Shown here: one piece after another, positions 39,481 through 44,312 of the stretch
Position numbering within the stretch: position 1 is the first letter of the stretch
How the letters are laid out: each line of letters starts with the position of its first letter
NCBI GenBank assembly: GCA_017550525.1
Contig: JAFZOU010000089.1
Coordinates: 1-44,312 of the forward strand
Reading direction: 5' to 3'
Length of the DNA stretch: 44,312 nt
Source: Bacteroidales bacterium
GTDB taxonomy: Bacteria > Bacteroidota > Bacteroidia > Bacteroidales > UBA932
Notes under the pieces: model-generated
Database searches by the model: none
The model's input: only the letters and a program-made list of their open reading frames with translations
Told to the model about the DNA's origin: nothing
Translations under genes and position numbers: made by a program

Positions 39481-39543
39481 CAAAAAACTATATAATGTTG
39501 TACACTGCGGCCAAAGCTGTTTCAGGGGCATTTCCACCATTTG

Positions 39544-39579
39544 GGGTGGTGTTTTTTATGATTATAACACCGAAATTTG
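39544..39579 (+). promoter_or_regulatory. Shared regulatory element, copy 1 (before small LuxR gene)
   Basis: GGGTGGTGTTTTTTA, 13 bases, GAAATTTG. The same two blocks with the same 13-base spacing occur at 43467-43502 before the double-zinc-ribbon gene. GAAATTTG is a weak form of the -7 box (GA in place of TA), which fits an activator-dependent promoter. The first block is the likely activator site. Confidence 0.7.
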
Positions 39580-39601
39580 CAACCATCAGATGTGAGAGCC
39601 T

Positions 39602-39796
39602 ATGAAACTGAACGACAGGGAACTGGAGATAGTGCGTCAGATAGCGGCGGGAAAAACCACCGCCGAAATTGCCGCAAACCTTTCTCTGAGCCCGGAAACC
39701 ATCAAATGGTACCGTAAAAAACTTCTGGCCAAATTCGAGGCCGGCAACTCCGCCATGATGGTAAAGATGGCCTCTGAGGCCGGGCTGCTGTTCTGA
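39602..39796 (+). CDS. Free-standing LuxR-type HTH protein (64 residues)
   Basis: The whole protein is one GerE/LuxR DNA-binding domain: LNDRELEIVRQIAAGKTTAEIAANLSLSPETIKWYRKKLLAKFE. It has no sensor or receiver domain. The recognition-helix stretch SLSPETIKWYRKK is identical to that of the TPR-LuxR regulator at 42193-43395, so both probably bind the same DNA. It is preceded by the shared promoter element and lies 24 bases before a 47-residue peptide gene, so it appears to lead the operon with the fimbrillin-like lipoprotein. It could be an activator, or a competitor of the larger protein. Confidence 0.88.
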   Translation: MKLNDRELEIVRQIAAGKTTAEIAANLSLSPETIKWYRKKLLAKFEAGNSAMMVKMASEAGLLF

Positions 39797-39820
39797 AATT
39801 ATCTATAAACGTACACATAT

Positions 39821-39964
39821 ATGAAAGCACAAAAACAAAACAGCTTGAATTATCAGGCTCCGGATTGCGATGTGGTCCAGCTGCAAACGGAGAAAAACAC
39901 CATGCAAATTATTTCAGACCCTAATGACTATGAAAACGGAGGTTCCGGCTTTGATTTGGACTAA
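39821..39964 (+). CDS. 47-residue peptide in operon with fimbrillin-like lipoprotein
   Basis: A short ORF beginning MKAQKQNSLNYQAPDCDVVQ and ending in DPNDYENGGSGFDLD. It has a Lys/Gln-rich start, one Cys, and an acidic tail with a Gly-Gly motif. It lies between the small LuxR gene and the lipoprotein, with a single base between its TAA and the next ATG. Comparable short proteins with an Ala/Pro-Glu/Asp...Val start and a variable tail often precede fimbrillin-like genes in Bacteroidales; their function is unknown. A secreted or modified peptide is possible but not shown. Confidence 0.72.
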   Translation: MKAQKQNSLNYQAPDCDVVQLQTEKNTMQIISDPNDYENGGSGFDLD

Positions 39965-39965
39965 T

Positions 39966-41462
39966 ATGAAAAAGATAGTATTCAGCCTTGCCGTTTTAGC
40001 GGCAATTATAACTGCCTGCACAGTTAAGAATAATCCTGTTATTCCGGAGGATAACCCTGCTCCCGGAGAAGAAACTATTGTTCCTGAAGAACCGGCTGCA
40101 GAGGGTATTCCCTTTGTGGCAACGGTATCGGCCAGTCGTGAAGATCCCGAAACCCGTTCTATTGCCGAAAGCGGGTCCGACCTTGCAGTAAACTGGGCGG
40201 AGAACGAAGAAATTGCCCTTATCTATACCGCTGGCGGAACCCCTGTAAATACTACGGCAAGGGTTTCTTCAGTGGATTCGGGTACTGGTGCGGCTACAAT
40301 TACCGCATCTCTTGATGCCTCCGTAACTGACAATACTCCCGTCACTCTCATTTTCCCCGCATCCGTAGCAGATGGCACAACTGGCAATATCCTTTCCACG
40401 GCACTGAGCGCTCAGGACGGTGCTCTGAGCAACAACCGTGATATCAGAAAGGGCAGCGGCACTATCCGCGTCAGCGGTACCGCCACGCTCCAGGATGGAG
40501 CCACTCTTGTAGCCCAATACGCAATCTGTAAGTTTGAGATTAAGGATATTGATGGAAGTAATAACCTAAGCGTCAGTAGCTTTAAGGTAAAGGATGCATC
40601 AGGTAATGTCATAACAACCATAACGCCTTCTCCTGCCAGCAGTACTCTGTATGTTTCTCTCCCCGCATCATCTTCTCTCACATGGTTTGAAGCGGTTGCT
40701 TCCGGAAAGTCCTATGTCGCCAAAGCCACCGCGGGCCTTTCAGCAGGTGTTTTCTATACGCCCACGCTAAAAATGGCAACAATTGGCAACGTAATAGGAG
40801 CAAACTTTAAGTTCTACAAGGACAAGAACGCCGCAGTTTCCGCCGGTACCACCGCCGCCGCAATTATTGCCTATGTTGGTGATGACACCGCAGAGACTGG
40901 TTTCAAGAATGGTTTGGCAATCAGCATGAAGAACACTTCGGGTGCCACAGTCCAATGGTCCACTTCATCTACTGCGGTGAACCCCAATACTTATTCTACA
41001 GCTGCCTTGGCAATTGCTGCCAAGGAATCGGGCTCTTCATTGTCATCTGGTAGGGGTACTGATTCTTATCCGGCATTCAAAGCAGCCCTGGCAAACGACA
41101 TCTCTTTAGAGTCCGGCATATCTGCAACCGCTCCATCAGGCACCAGCGGCTGGTTCCTCGCATCTATGTTCCAGTGGAATAATATACTGAAGGGATTGGG
41201 CGGCGCTTCCACAGATATCAGTGGTGTTGTTAACAATGATTTCAAAATCGACAAGTACTACACCATTATTCAGGCCTCATGGAACGATGACAGTTATGTA
41301 ATACCACACCAGATAGGAAGGACAGGTTCGTATCTGGATAAATTCTGGACAAGTTCGGAAAGGTCTGCCGATTATGCCTGGGACTATTATGCACAGAACG
41401 GAACTGTTGTTGACAACTACAAAACTAATTATATGTCGGTCCGTGCCGCTCTGGCGTTCTAG
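39966..41462 (+). CDS. Fimbrillin-like surface lipoprotein
   Basis: A 498-residue lipoprotein (signal MKKIVFSLAVLAAIITACTV, Cys near 18). The N-terminal half resembles the fimbrillin/Mfa-like domain: PFVATVSASREDPETRSIAESGSDLAVNWAENEEIALIY, then Thr/Ser-rich beta strands. The C-terminal part (SGWFLASMFQWNNILKGLG, then YLDKFWTSSERSADYAWDYY) is like the DUF1566/Fib_succ-type module found in surface proteins. The ATG at 39966 begins the signal peptide. Fimbrillins are exported, cleaved and assembled on the outer surface; polymerisation has not been shown for this type. Codon use is more AT-rich than the housekeeping genes. Confidence 0.8.
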   Translation: MKKIVFSLAVLAAIITACTVKNNPVIPEDNPAPGEETIVPEEPAAEGIPFVATVSASREDPETRSIAESGSDLAVNWAENEEIALIYTAGGTPVNTTARVSSVDSGTGAATITASLDASVTDNTPVTLIFPASVADGTTGNILSTALSAQDGALSNNRDIRKGSGTIRVSGTATLQDGATLVAQYAICKFEIKDIDGSNNLSVSSFKVKDASGNVITTITPSPASSTLYVSLPASSSLTWFEAVASGKSYVAKATAGLSAGVFYTPTLKMATIGNVIGANFKFYKDKNAAVSAGTTAAAIIAYVGDDTAETGFKNGLAISMKNTSGATVQWSTSSTAVNPNTYSTAALAIAAKESGSSLSSGRGTDSYPAFKAALANDISLESGISATAPSGTSGWFLASMFQWNNILKGLGGASTDISGVVNNDFKIDKYYTIIQASWNDDSYVIPHQIGRTGSYLDKFWTSSERSADYAWDYYAQNGTVVDNYKTNYMSVRAALAF

Positions 41463-41480
41463 TTCTCTCCAAATAAACCT

Positions 41481-41512
41481 AGTGCCCCGCCAATCGGCAG
41501 GGCACTTGTTTT
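41481..41512 (+). terminator. Intrinsic terminator after the fimbrillin-like gene
   Basis: AGTGCCCCGCC, AATC loop, GGCAGGGCACT, then TGTTTT. The stem has one C-A mismatch. Confidence 0.8.
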
Positions 41513-41580
41513 GTGGCCGTGTTTGCACTTAAAACGCTCCTGTGGCCGTTTTCACTGCCTACACGGCACGCGGAGACGCA

Positions 41581-41976
41581 TTATTCTTCTTTCTTTTTTG
41601 AACCATAGACGGGGCTGTCTGGTTCGCTTAGATATTGTGGCGCTCTATCTGGCTGATATCCATAGCCACTGACCAGATTGCCGGGATGGATAAGAAGATC
41701 CATGTCCAAAACTCTTTCCAATCTGGAGATAGTATCCAATGTCAGATTTTCCTTGCCTTTCAAAACAAGTGAGATATATTGCTGGGAGCATCCCATTTTT
41801 TCTGCCAACTCTTTTTGTGTCAGCCCAAGAGCAGCCATTTTTTTACGGGCGTTAAGTGCTATTTTAGCGGAATGCTTAAGCCAGCCCCAGTTGTCAACGT
41901 TCCACTGGGCCTGCTCTTTCCATTTTGACGGCTCACTGCTTTGATGAGCCTTCAGGACATCAATTGCTTTTGCCAT
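41581..41976 (-). CDS. XRE-family HTH antitoxin-like regulator
   Basis: A 131-residue protein. The HTH is KKMAALGLTQKELAEKMGCSQQYISLVLKGKENLTLDTISRLERVL at about 45-90. The N-terminal part (SSEPSKWKEQAQWNVDNWGWLKHSAKIALNARK) is typical of HigA-like antitoxins of Bacteroidales. One base separates it from a 38-codon fragment on the 5' side, where a toxin gene would normally be. It probably represses the shared promoter at a palindromic operator. Confidence 0.85.
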   Translation of the reverse strand: MAKAIDVLKAHQSSEPSKWKEQAQWNVDNWGWLKHSAKIALNARKKMAALGLTQKELAEKMGCSQQYISLVLKGKENLTLDTISRLERVLDMDLLIHPGNLVSGYGYQPDRAPQYLSEPDSPVYGSKKKEE

Positions 41977-41977
41977 T

Positions 41978-42094
41978 TTACTCTTTCATTAAATCCAACC
42001 AATTGCTAAAAGTGTGGTATAGGATATTATCCTGCATACCATCATATTTGGCAGCCCATAGGCGTCCGTCACCTGTTATTTCGTCAAATTTCAT
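41978..42094 (-). pseudogene. Truncated toxin-like ORF (38 residues)
   Basis: Reads MKFDEITGDGRLWAAKYDG and ends in NWLDLMKE. The GRLWAAKYDG segment resembles the N-terminus of the roughly 100-residue toxin that precedes such antitoxins in Bacteroidales, but the rest is missing. The ORF stops one base before the antitoxin start, consistent with deletion of the toxin C-terminal part. A genuine small peptide is the alternative. The toxin family assignment is from memory and needs a profile search. Confidence 0.6.
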
Positions 42095-42098
42095 ATTG

Positions 42099-42132
42099 CA
42101 AAGATATAATCATTTTTAACTTGTACAAGTTA
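42099..42132 (-). promoter_or_regulatory. Promoter and palindromic operator of the toxin-antitoxin remnant
   Basis: A perfect 16-base palindrome TAACTTGTACAAGTTA lies at 42117-42132. On the minus strand it contains TTG, then a 19-base spacer and TATCTTTG (42099-42106), the -7 box. The start codon follows four bases later. An operator overlapping the -33 region fits autorepression by the XRE protein. Confidence 0.7.
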
Positions 42133-42192
42133 TAATATGATTTTTATACGATATTTGATTTCTAATCCGCCTTGGGATGACAACAAGAGGTG

Positions 42193-43395
42193 CTATTCCA
42201 ATACCCCGCAGTCGCGGGCTTTGAGGACAAGTTCGGCCACGTTGGAGACGTCAAATTTCACAAGGAACTTCTTGCGGTACCATTTGATGGTTTCAGGGCT
42301 GAGGGACAGGGCCTCGGCGATATTGGTGCTGGTGTAGCCTTTGGAAAGAAGGTCCAGGATTTCCTTTTCACGGTCTGTGAGGGCGGGGATTTCCTCTGGC
42401 GAAATGCCCTCTGCGGGAGCATTGGCGGAGCGGCGTGAAGTGGCGGCCTTCTTGTCTTTCTTCCTTTTAACGATAGAGCCCGCGGCAACCAGGACAAGGC
42501 CGGTTAGGATACCCGTAAGAAATCCCAGCTGCTTTTTCTGGCGGGAGAGGACCTCTTTCATATAGTCCAGATTCTCTGTGCGGAAATTTGGCGCAAAGTC
42601 CGGGTGGGCGGCGTAGTAGGCATCGGCCTTCCTTAAATAGGAAAGGGACTTGCGGGTTTGGCCCTTCTCCATATACAACCTGCCATAACCCTTCCATACG
42701 TCCACTATCATTAGCGAATCCCCGGAAGCATCGGCAAAAGCCATTGCCTTGTCGTATTCGGCCTTGGCCTTGTGGACGTCTCCCTCGTCAAGCCAGGTCT
42801 CTCCCATATTGTAATGGAGGATGGAATTGCTCTCGTTCCAGCCGTATTTTTCAAAGATGGCGCCGGCCTTTTCATAATAATCCATGGCCTGCGGGATTGA
42901 ATCCATCATATTGTAAAGATTGCCGATAGAGCCGTAAAGGGCCGAGTAATAGTCGTCAATCTCTCTTTCCGTGTATCCTTCCTGGTTGGTGGGGGAGGTG
43001 GCGCCGGCGGCCATTGCGTCCACGGCGGCAAGGGAAGCCAGATAATAGACGCGGGCGCTGTCATACTGTTCCCGGCCATAATAGATTTGGCCGATATAGC
43101 GGTAGGCGTCGGAATCGGCCGCATACCATCCGCGGGGGCGGCTGATGGACAGGGCCTTGCGGGCGTAGAAGAAGCTCTTGTCACCGTTGAGGACGTTGTA
43201 GCCCAGCATAAGGTCACGGCAGGCGCGGTTGTACTGCACAAGTTCCTGGTCTGACGCTTTGTCAAGGGCGTCAGGGGTCCAGCGCGCAACCACCCTTTCC
43301 AGGGAGTCCAGATTATGGCCCCTGTGGTCATTGTAGGCTGCCGCGCTAGGCATGATTATACCCGCAAGCAGAAGCAGTGACAGAAAACGTTTCAT
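42193..43395 (-). CDS. Membrane-spanning TPR-LuxR transcription regulator
   Basis: A 400-residue one-component regulator. An N-terminal signal (MKRFLSLLLLAGIIMPSAAA) is followed by a TPR region in the periplasm (about 60-270), one transmembrane helix at about 290-309 (LGFLTGILTGLVLVAAGSIV), a basic linker and a cytosolic LuxR HTH (ALTDREKEILDLLSKGYTSTNIAEALSLSPETIKWYRKKFLVKFD, 338-381). This would sense an envelope signal and act on DNA from the membrane. It is divergent from the double-zinc-ribbon gene whose promoter carries the shared element, so direct control of that gene is likely. Confidence 0.88.
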   Translation of the reverse strand: MKRFLSLLLLAGIIMPSAAAYNDHRGHNLDSLERVVARWTPDALDKASDQELVQYNRACRDLMLGYNVLNGDKSFFYARKALSISRPRGWYAADSDAYRYIGQIYYGREQYDSARVYYLASLAAVDAMAAGATSPTNQEGYTEREIDDYYSALYGSIGNLYNMMDSIPQAMDYYEKAGAIFEKYGWNESNSILHYNMGETWLDEGDVHKAKAEYDKAMAFADASGDSLMIVDVWKGYGRLYMEKGQTRKSLSYLRKADAYYAAHPDFAPNFRTENLDYMKEVLSRQKKQLGFLTGILTGLVLVAAGSIVKRKKDKKAATSRRSANAPAEGISPEEIPALTDREKEILDLLSKGYTSTNIAEALSLSPETIKWYRKKFLVKFDVSNVAELVLKARDCGVLE

Positions 43396-43399
43396 ATTA

Positions 43400-43407
43400 C
43401 AAAAATA
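43400..43407 (-). promoter_or_regulatory. -7 box for the TPR-LuxR gene
   Basis: Minus-strand TATTTTTG matches TAnnTTTG, four bases before the ATG, predicting a leaderless message. Confidence 0.6.
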
Positions 43408-43466
43408 GATAAAAAAGGCGTAATTAACCCTTTTTGGCGGCTTGTCGCGCTTAATTCCCCCCTTTA

Positions 43467-43502
43467 GGGTGGTGTTTTTTAGTTCAAGAAGTGTGAAATT
43501 TG
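43467..43502 (+). promoter_or_regulatory. Shared regulatory element, copy 2 (before double-zinc-ribbon gene)
   Basis: GGGTGGTGTTTTTTA, 13 bases, GAAATTTG, identical in the two blocks and spacing to 39544-39579. It lies in the gap between the divergent TPR-LuxR gene and this gene. Confidence 0.7.
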
Positions 43503-43532: not shown

Positions 43533-44312
43533 ATGAAAAAATTACTTCTTTCCCTCGCCGTTCTTGCAATGGTTTGCGGAACGGCCAGTGCCCAGAGCTT
43601 TCTGGACAAACTAAAGGACCGTGCTAAGGAAGCCGCAGAGCAGAACATCGGCAACAAAGTTGAAAAGGGCGTCAACGACATCCTTGACGGTAACTTCGGC
43701 AAGAAAAAAGATAAGAAAGACAAGAAGGCCGATGAATCCGCGAAGCAGGAGGCCAGCGTCAGCTGGACCTGCGAGGAATGCGGCAAAACCGGCAACACGG
43801 GTAAGTTCTGTGCCGATTGCGGCGCAAAGAAGCCCGGCGCTTCTGAGGCTGCAAAGCCCGCTGCCCCCGCCGCCAGCGCTGCCTGGACCTGCGAGGAATG
43901 CGGTAAAACCGGCAACACAGGCAATTTCTGCGACGACTGCGGCGCAAAGAAGCCTTCTGGAGAAGCCGCTCCTGCTCCCAAGCCAAAGAAACAGGTGGAA
44001 ACTGCTTATGCAAAGAGTGACTTTGTCCCGGGAGACGAGATTTTCTTTGAGGATACTTTTGAAAATGAGCAGCTGGGAGAGTTCCCGTCACAGTGGGATT
44101 TGATGTCAGGTTATGCCGAAGTGGGATCCGTGGGAGGACGTAAGGTGATTGCCTTTACGGATGACGGATTCGCCGAAATACAGCCCCTGATGAATGACCA
44201 GCAGCACTTCCTGCCAGACGTGTTCACGCTGGAATTCGATATGTATTTGCAGACAGGCGACGGCCTGGGCGGGGACGAACTGGAAATCGCCTTTGGCAAC
44301 CCGGACCTTCCC
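43533..44312 (+). CDS. Exported protein with two zinc ribbons, OmpA-family-like, 3' end outside window
   Basis: A partial gene of 260 codons with no stop before the window ends. The signal peptide is MKKLLLSLAVLAMVCGTASA, followed by a Lys-rich helical stretch and two zinc ribbons repeating at exactly 40 residues: WTCEECGKTGNTGKFCADCGAKKP (Cys 80, 83, 93, 96) and its copy (Cys 120, 123, 133, 136). The rest (FVPGDEIFFEDTFENEQLGEFPSQWDL, then FTLEFDMYLQ) resembles the beta-sandwich region seen before OmpA domains in similar Bacteroidota proteins. The likely C-terminal OmpA domain is out of view. Zinc ribbons in an exported protein are uncommon. Confidence 0.85.
   Translation, partial: MKKLLLSLAVLAMVCGTASAQSFLDKLKDRAKEAAEQNIGNKVEKGVNDILDGNFGKKKDKKDKKADESAKQEASVSWTCEECGKTGNTGKFCADCGAKKPGASEAAKPAAPAASAAWTCEECGKTGNTGNFCDDCGAKKPSGEAAPAPKPKKQVETAYAKSDFVPGDEIFFEDTFENEQLGEFPSQWDLMSGYAEVGSVGGRKVIAFTDDGFAEIQPLMNDQQHFLPDVFTLEFDMYLQTGDGLGGDELEIAFGNPDLP
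43763..43945 (+). repeat. Near-identical internal repeat (zinc ribbon), 120-base period
   Basis: The segment from TGGACCTGCGAGGAATGCGG at 43763 recurs at 43883 with only a few third-position changes across about 60 bases. The low divergence points to recent duplication or ongoing conversion. Confidence 0.85.

Follow-up and report, generated by a model that had tools for sequence, protein, structure and literature searches.

A palindromic promoter element linked to membrane and free-standing LuxR-type proteins in a genus of Bacteroidales

Introduction

Class II transcriptional activators bind near position -41 of their promoters. In the LuxR system a palindrome near -42, the lux box, holds a GerE-domain dimer in this class II position, while GerE of Bacillus subtilis is a stand-alone GerE-domain regulator. 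In Porphyromonas gingivalis, FimS is described as having a periplasmic tetratricopeptide repeat (TPR) sensor of unknown signal; FimR binds at the mfa1 promoter and also, in a cascade, at the promoter of the first fimA-cluster gene (PMC11053733, PMC1974823). Here we analyse a 44,312-nucleotide contig of a Bacteroidales bacterium of the UBA932 lineage (GenBank assembly GCA_017550525.1, contig JAFZOU010000089.1; hereafter the window), in which two promoters carry the same palindromic element. One precedes an operon that opens with a free-standing LuxR-type DNA-binding domain (mini-LuxR) and continues with a 47-amino-acid (aa) peptide and a lipoprotein; the other lies between divergent genes for a TPR protein with a C-terminal LuxR-type domain (TPR-LuxR) and for an exported zinc-ribbon protein. 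Judged by comparison across genomes, this promoter element is real, widespread in the genus and strongly linked to both LuxR-type proteins; its best overall explanation, which we consider quite likely, is a class II activator site in a circuit of TPR-LuxR and mini-LuxR.

Results

The initial annotation of the window had described two identical blocks at identical spacing and had proposed a genome scan as a check on random occurrence. The blocks, GGGTGGTGTTTTTTA-N13-GAAATTTG, are indeed exact at 39544-39579 (+) and 43467-43502 (+), with no further copy in the window at up to three mismatches and none in 100 dinucleotide shuffles. At the same threshold they are the sole sites in the whole 2.38-Mb assembly (91% complete), where a reversed-pattern control gave no match; the scan thus spoke in favour of the original observation. 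The two blocks turn out to be just the right part of a larger element that begins ten bases further upstream: a 6-N4-6 palindrome (39534-39549 and 43457-43472), then TGTTTTT, a 15-base spacer and a -7 box of the Bacteroidetes type that departs from the consensus at its first base. Since the TA that follows the T run varies in relatives, N15 describes the spacer better than N13. Scanning the 44 kb for this architecture with the arm letters left free (6-N4-6 symmetry, TGTTTTT, N15, nTTTG) returned exactly two sites, at 39534 and 43457 (score at least 14). As first noted, the -7 box is degraded at both promoters, reading GAAATTTG against the consensus TAnnTTTG (PMC7366714). With positions inferred from the -7 box, the centre of the palindrome falls near -41 at both sites.

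Within two mismatches, we count 98 matches to the element, spread over 84 of the 400 genus genomes (the window's own among them); the reversed pattern has no match in any of the 400. Ninety-one matches are palindromic (at least 4 of 6 positions), six are not, and one lies at a contig edge. Nearly all palindromic sites (89 of 91) have one or more of the following as neighbours: a divergent TPR-LuxR gene (74 sites), an OmpA/LamG-like gene (63), a mini-LuxR gene (54) or a small-peptide open reading frame (ORF; 15). The same is true of two of the six non-palindromic matches. These counts describe the company that the element keeps, not the frequency of the element at such genes; around 240 random positions, partly in like loci, the corresponding counts were 19 for TPR-LuxR, 7 for OmpA, 6 for mini-LuxR and 13 for the small-peptide search pattern, which is loose. 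Of 94 distinct sites, 87 have G at the start of the -7 box, though the search pattern itself specified G there, with two mismatches allowed. Both palindromic sites devoid of such neighbours, L113 and L270, have the left arm TCACCC; in L113 (G108), L270 and L252 (G102), a palindromic element with this arm precedes a different gene (718 aa in L113) that could be an additional target.

Beyond the genus set, an exact scan of a titled species collection returned 28 stretches, 25 of them titled Bacteroidales, Bacteroidia or Cryptobacteroides, and each of these 25 holds a related helix-turn-helix (HTH) gene. The three matches outside Bacteroidales (L066, L073, L084) have no related HTH gene and no palindrome visible by eye, and we attribute them to chance. 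Matches of a shorter pattern in other families of the order (11 against 8 with the reversed control in 16 genomes) are also taken as chance.

Further searches left out part of the element. Using the palindrome and TGTTT with one mismatch and no -7 box, we obtained 29 matches in 25 of 151 genomes; TTTG stands at one fixed offset in 25 of the 29 (next commonest offset, 6), and HTH, TPR, OmpA or lipoprotein genes adjoin 23. Starting instead from the protein, a TPR-LuxR profile search had matches in 28 of 81 genus genomes, and the arm-free scan found an operator in 19 of 30 TPR-led loci, several of which were already known from the element search; in these 30 loci 16 sites score at least 15, where 30 shuffles average 0.03, and new arm pairs appear (CTACCA/TGGTGG, CTAAAC/GTATAG). 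Furthermore, the two arms covary: on average 5.17 of 6 positions are symmetric, whereas the best of 10,000 arm re-pairings reached 4.94 (relatedness uncontrolled). Arm and helix statistics refer to 97 sites, 94 of them distinct, one contig-edge site that lacks a left arm being excluded.

The shared DNA-reading helix of the two window regulators, also reported in the initial annotation, holds: the 64-aa mini-LuxR and the 400-aa TPR-LuxR both contain LSLSPETIKWYRKK, and both match the GerE/LuxR domain PF00196 (55 and 50.3 bits, respectively; cut-off 23.5). Across the genus, three operator classes pair with three classes of recognition helix, told apart by the residue before a conserved T. This residue is E in both proteins at class 1 operators (mostly GGGTGG) and P, A or H at class 2 operators (GGATGG and similar); at class 3 operators (CCACAT/GTGTGG) it is N in 5 of 5 TPR proteins, and among 14 mini proteins it is S or P in 11, N in two and D in one. 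Counted by the third base of the right arm, G goes with E in 55 of 55 TPR proteins (two read by eye) and 38 of 39 mini proteins, and A with P, A or H in 11 of 12 TPR and 9 of 10 mini proteins. The pairing of G with E has two exceptions, the class 3 site L136 and L142, where the arms are CCACCC/GTATGG and both proteins have E; at the protein-led locus L203, GTATAG goes with Q. Helix and operator class go together for both proteins, and the earlier suggestion that the two HTH proteins read one element is plausible. Upstream of the palindrome, L025, L040, L041 and L049 carry a third half-site (GGGTGG-N6-CCACCC-N4-GGGTGG). Several class 2 loci have it as GGATAG or GTATAG, and it may serve the divergent TPR-LuxR promoter.

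The class 3 operator, first met at L136, allowed a prediction within the window's own genome. A second mini-LuxR and TPR-LuxR on contig C125 carry helices similar to the L136 class; a class 3 operator was predicted from these helices and then found, with no mismatch, before the second mini-LuxR, 22 bp ahead of TATTTTTG. Throughout the genus this operator has 17 matches in 16 of 400 genomes, 14 before mini-LuxR and three before proteins with OmpA-protein-like N-termini (by eye), and TTTG lies at the expected offset in all 17. A further GerE domain of the window's own genome, L059 (contig C58, 3-191), is truncated by the contig start and has the helix TEQTIKWRRQR, like that of TPR-LuxR L207, at whose locus the arm-free scan found no operator.

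The sensor part of TPR-LuxR has relatives among histidine kinases. Among the 56 TPR-LuxR proteins called by a simple ORF rule, all have a transmembrane segment by hydropathy and 51 an N-terminal hydrophobic segment. In 97 genomes of other families of the order, the TPR-LuxR profile matched in just two, reaching position 271 or 331 of 406, and both matches (L217, L218) are histidine kinases that join a TPR region to HisKA_3 and ATPase domains; L217 is 37% identical to the TPR region of the window protein over 295 aligned columns. The features of a FimS-like periplasmic TPR sensor were thus found, namely TPR homology to TPR kinases, a signal segment and a transmembrane segment, the topology being predicted. 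We reject TPR-LuxR as a FimS sensor kinase proper: against the FimS model NF053520 (cut-off 600) its TPR region scores 25 bits, in the TPR part only, where the TPR parts of the two kinases score 61 and 35, and the 19 Pfam matches to the 400-aa protein include no histidine kinase or ATPase domain. The sensor would accordingly resemble those of FimS-like kinases, a resemblance and not membership, and be joined to a LuxR domain where these have their kinase; either loss of a kinase or gain of a DNA-binding domain would separate the two kinds of protein.

The remaining window features are collected in Table 1. The exported protein beyond site 2 does have the two zinc ribbons first described, yet its Pfam zinc-ribbon match is below cut-off, and two full-length relatives that were scanned show a C-terminal OmpA domain (PF00691), overlooked at first, as well as a LamG-like stretch below cut-off. 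The label "fimbrillin-like" is at most putative for the lipoprotein: scanned from residue 8, it matches no NCBIfam family, and its best Pfam match, Lcl_C (E 0.041), stays below cut-off; the 47-aa peptide likewise matches neither Pfam nor NCBIfam. ORFs for similar peptides, about 37-58 aa long and in many cases containing Y-L-x-P-E-x-E-V, lie downstream of the element in L091, L100, L108, L112, L135, L140, L143, L150, L153, L154, L158, L160, L268 and L273; those that were read are followed by surface lipoprotein genes. In G242 the window order of element, mini-LuxR, small peptide and lipoprotein (57% identity) is repeated; in G403 one element precedes mini-LuxR and OmpA genes and a second precedes peptide and lipoprotein, so that mini-LuxR resides in one operon or the other. 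TPR-LuxR transcripts may be leaderless, as suggested by TAnnTTTG within 45 bases upstream of 37 of the 56 genes, in 34 cases 4-5 nt from the called start. Between the lipoprotein and TPR-LuxR genes lies an Xre-type HTH gene (131 aa, 41581-42093, -), preceded by a 38-aa ORF (MKFDEITGDGRLWAAKYDG...); the two are possibly the remains of a toxin-antitoxin pair.

Table 1. Features of the two promoter regions of the window and of the parallel circuit in the same genome
Feature	Position	Strand	Description
Operator 1	39534..39549	+	Palindrome CCACCA-TTTG-GGGTGG, 5/6 positions symmetric; proposed LuxR dimer site
TGTTTTT tract, site 1	39550..39556	+	Adjoins right arm, -33 region
-7 box GAAATTTG, site 1	39572..39579	+	Consensus TAnnTTTG; 22 bp past palindrome
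mini-LuxR	39602..39796	+	64 aa, GerE domain (PF00196) alone, helix SPETIKWYRKK
47-aa peptide	39821..39964	+	Similar small ORFs after 14 other element sites
Surface lipoprotein	39966..41462	+	Signal ends IITAC; gene begins 1 nt past peptide gene
TPR-LuxR	42193..43395	-	N-terminal hydrophobic segment, TPR region, hydropathy transmembrane segment, C-terminal GerE, helix as in mini-LuxR
-7 box TATTTTTG of TPR-LuxR gene	43400..43407	-	Fits TAnnTTTG, 4 nt from ATG
Operator 2	43457..43472	+	Palindrome CCCCCC-TTTA-GGGTGG, 5/6 symmetric
TGTTTTT tract, site 2	43473..43479	+	Adjoins right arm
-7 box GAAATTTG, site 2	43495..43502	+	22 bp past palindrome
Exported protein	43533..44312	+	Two CxxC...CxxC ribbons; truncated by contig end
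Second, parallel circuit	Own contig C125, 13983-17514 (L219, L054, L060)		Class 3 operator, mini-LuxR, lipoprotein-like genes, TPR-LuxR with matching helix

Discussion

Together, these comparisons make it very likely that the palindrome is the operator of the LuxR-type proteins encoded beside it, and likely that their binding activates transcription. In the circuit that we propose, TPR-LuxR would sit in the inner membrane as a sensor, its TPR part periplasmic and its GerE domain cytoplasmic; a GerE-domain dimer would bind the palindrome near -41 and aid the start of RNA polymerase. Mini-LuxR, encoded in a target operon, would read the same site, most likely as a soluble amplifier that relays the response to promoters which the tethered TPR-LuxR reaches poorly. 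The outputs would be the OmpA/LamG-like protein and the operon of small peptide and lipoprotein. The regulon of a membrane TPR-LuxR and envelope proteins sketched in the initial annotation is supported by comparison (89 of 91 palindromic sites) except for the lipoprotein, whose membership varies; that annotation had overlooked the palindrome, the OmpA portion of the second target, the C125 circuit and the histidine-kinase relatives of the sensor.

Several observations weigh against this interpretation. The neighbour counts are drawn from sites that were fetched via the element itself; among the TPR-led loci, 11 of 30 have no operator, some owing to a contig end; and the search that omitted the -7 box gave 9 matches with its reversed control against 29. 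A protein search for the lipoprotein in 121 genomes gave 10 partial matches (36-45% identical) in 8 other genomes, and none of the 10 has the element within the stretch that was fetched; the lipoprotein as a fixed target is therefore not upheld. As 25 of the 91 palindromic sites have OmpA but no mini-LuxR, the latter is dispensable for the arrangement. Of the 17 class 3 sites, some of them near-identical, 11 also have TTTG at another offset. In a tree built from 73 TPR proteins (trimmed to the last 425 residues; L231 and L241, which have the helix SPETIKWYKKK and class 1 operators, and 14 of the 98 element sites left out), operator class changes just twice, so the helix match cannot reach significance and is consistent rather than statistically independent. 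A first HTH tree, built from distinct HTH sequences (longer than 55 aa for those from element loci), had suggested that mini and TPR helices switched independently; with the helix columns removed, a single origin of class 2 helices is not rejected (approximately unbiased test, p 0.54), meaning that the two may not have switched independently, and with too few independent pairs we dropped this claim. Near-perfect as it is, the association of operator and helix goes back to about two evolutionary switches.

We regard positive feedback by mini-LuxR as an evenly balanced proposition. Alternatively, with the operator real, mini-LuxR could be a competitor that occupies the site and does not activate, giving negative feedback; its reduction to a DNA-binding domain with a helix in common with TPR-LuxR would suit this role, and its location in a target operon is compatible with activator and competitor alike, but stand-alone GerE-domain regulators exist (GerE itself, and PedR as modelled in NCBIfam), and we consider competition rather unlikely. 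It is less probable still, and in our view doubtful, that TPR-LuxR alone uses the element and that mini-LuxR has inherited the common helix but acts at other sites. In favour of this view, the two HTH groups are related, and the class 2 helices may go back to a single origin; against it, mini-LuxR starts no more than 900 bases downstream of 54 of the 91 palindromic sites, and its helix tracks the operator class.

A palindrome followed by a T-rich stretch could be an intrinsic transcription terminator, and indeed a consensus scanner lists site 1 as terminator-like and some relatives have GAAA loops. Yet site 2 is not listed, the A-T-richer stems of classes 2 and 3 would, from composition only, form weaker hairpins, the distance to the -7 box is fixed (25 of 29 and 17 of 17 sites), and the divergent TPR-LuxR gene next to 74 of 91 palindromic sites leaves no gene end on that strand; the last two points rule the terminator out for us as highly improbable. 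A recent promoter duplication with no common regulation, suggested by identity over 15 and 8 bases, is scarcely credible and is likewise set aside, given that the two sites differ in their flanks and in the 13 intervening bases, and that many genus genomes have this element next to genes of the same types.

The circuit of TPR-LuxR and mini-LuxR offers a concrete operator, likely readers and a short list of targets for a gut genus represented in this study by assembled genomes only, and its recurrence in many relatives points to a putative envelope-sensing switch. Because its three operator classes have matching helices, the recognition of DNA by these LuxR domains is directly testable, and a DNA-binding domain that replaces a kinase on the same sensor would be a clean case of two-component and one-component systems sharing a sensor. 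Among the titles and abstract openings listed by searches of an open-access library, none described the element or the pairing, which is no proof that they are unpublished. More tentatively, we envisage a FimS-like membrane sensor with a DNA-reading domain for its kinase and a soluble, HTH-only partner that reaches remote promoters, such that one genome could hold insulated copies of tethered trigger and diffusible amplifier, each with its own operator code.

Like LuxR and the lux box, the proposed circuit has a palindrome in what would be the class II position and, as its proposed reader, a GerE dimer, whereas its sequence is different, the promoter is of the Bacteroidetes type and there is no autoinducer domain. 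Mini-LuxR is a free-standing LuxR-type DNA-binding domain like GerE of B. subtilis and PedR (NCBIfam NF052366; mini-LuxR scores 34 bits, cut-off 120); for neither do we know of a membrane TPR partner of equal specificity. The TPR-HisKA_3 kinases of Bacteroidales (L217, L218) have a homologous TPR sensor, with kinase and ATPase domains where TPR-LuxR has GerE. Finally, FimS is a histidine kinase that acts via a separate regulator, whereas TPR-LuxR has no kinase and carries its own GerE domain; common to both would be a TPR sensor, predicted to be periplasmic here, and surface genes under control, which in P. gingivalis are fimbrial.

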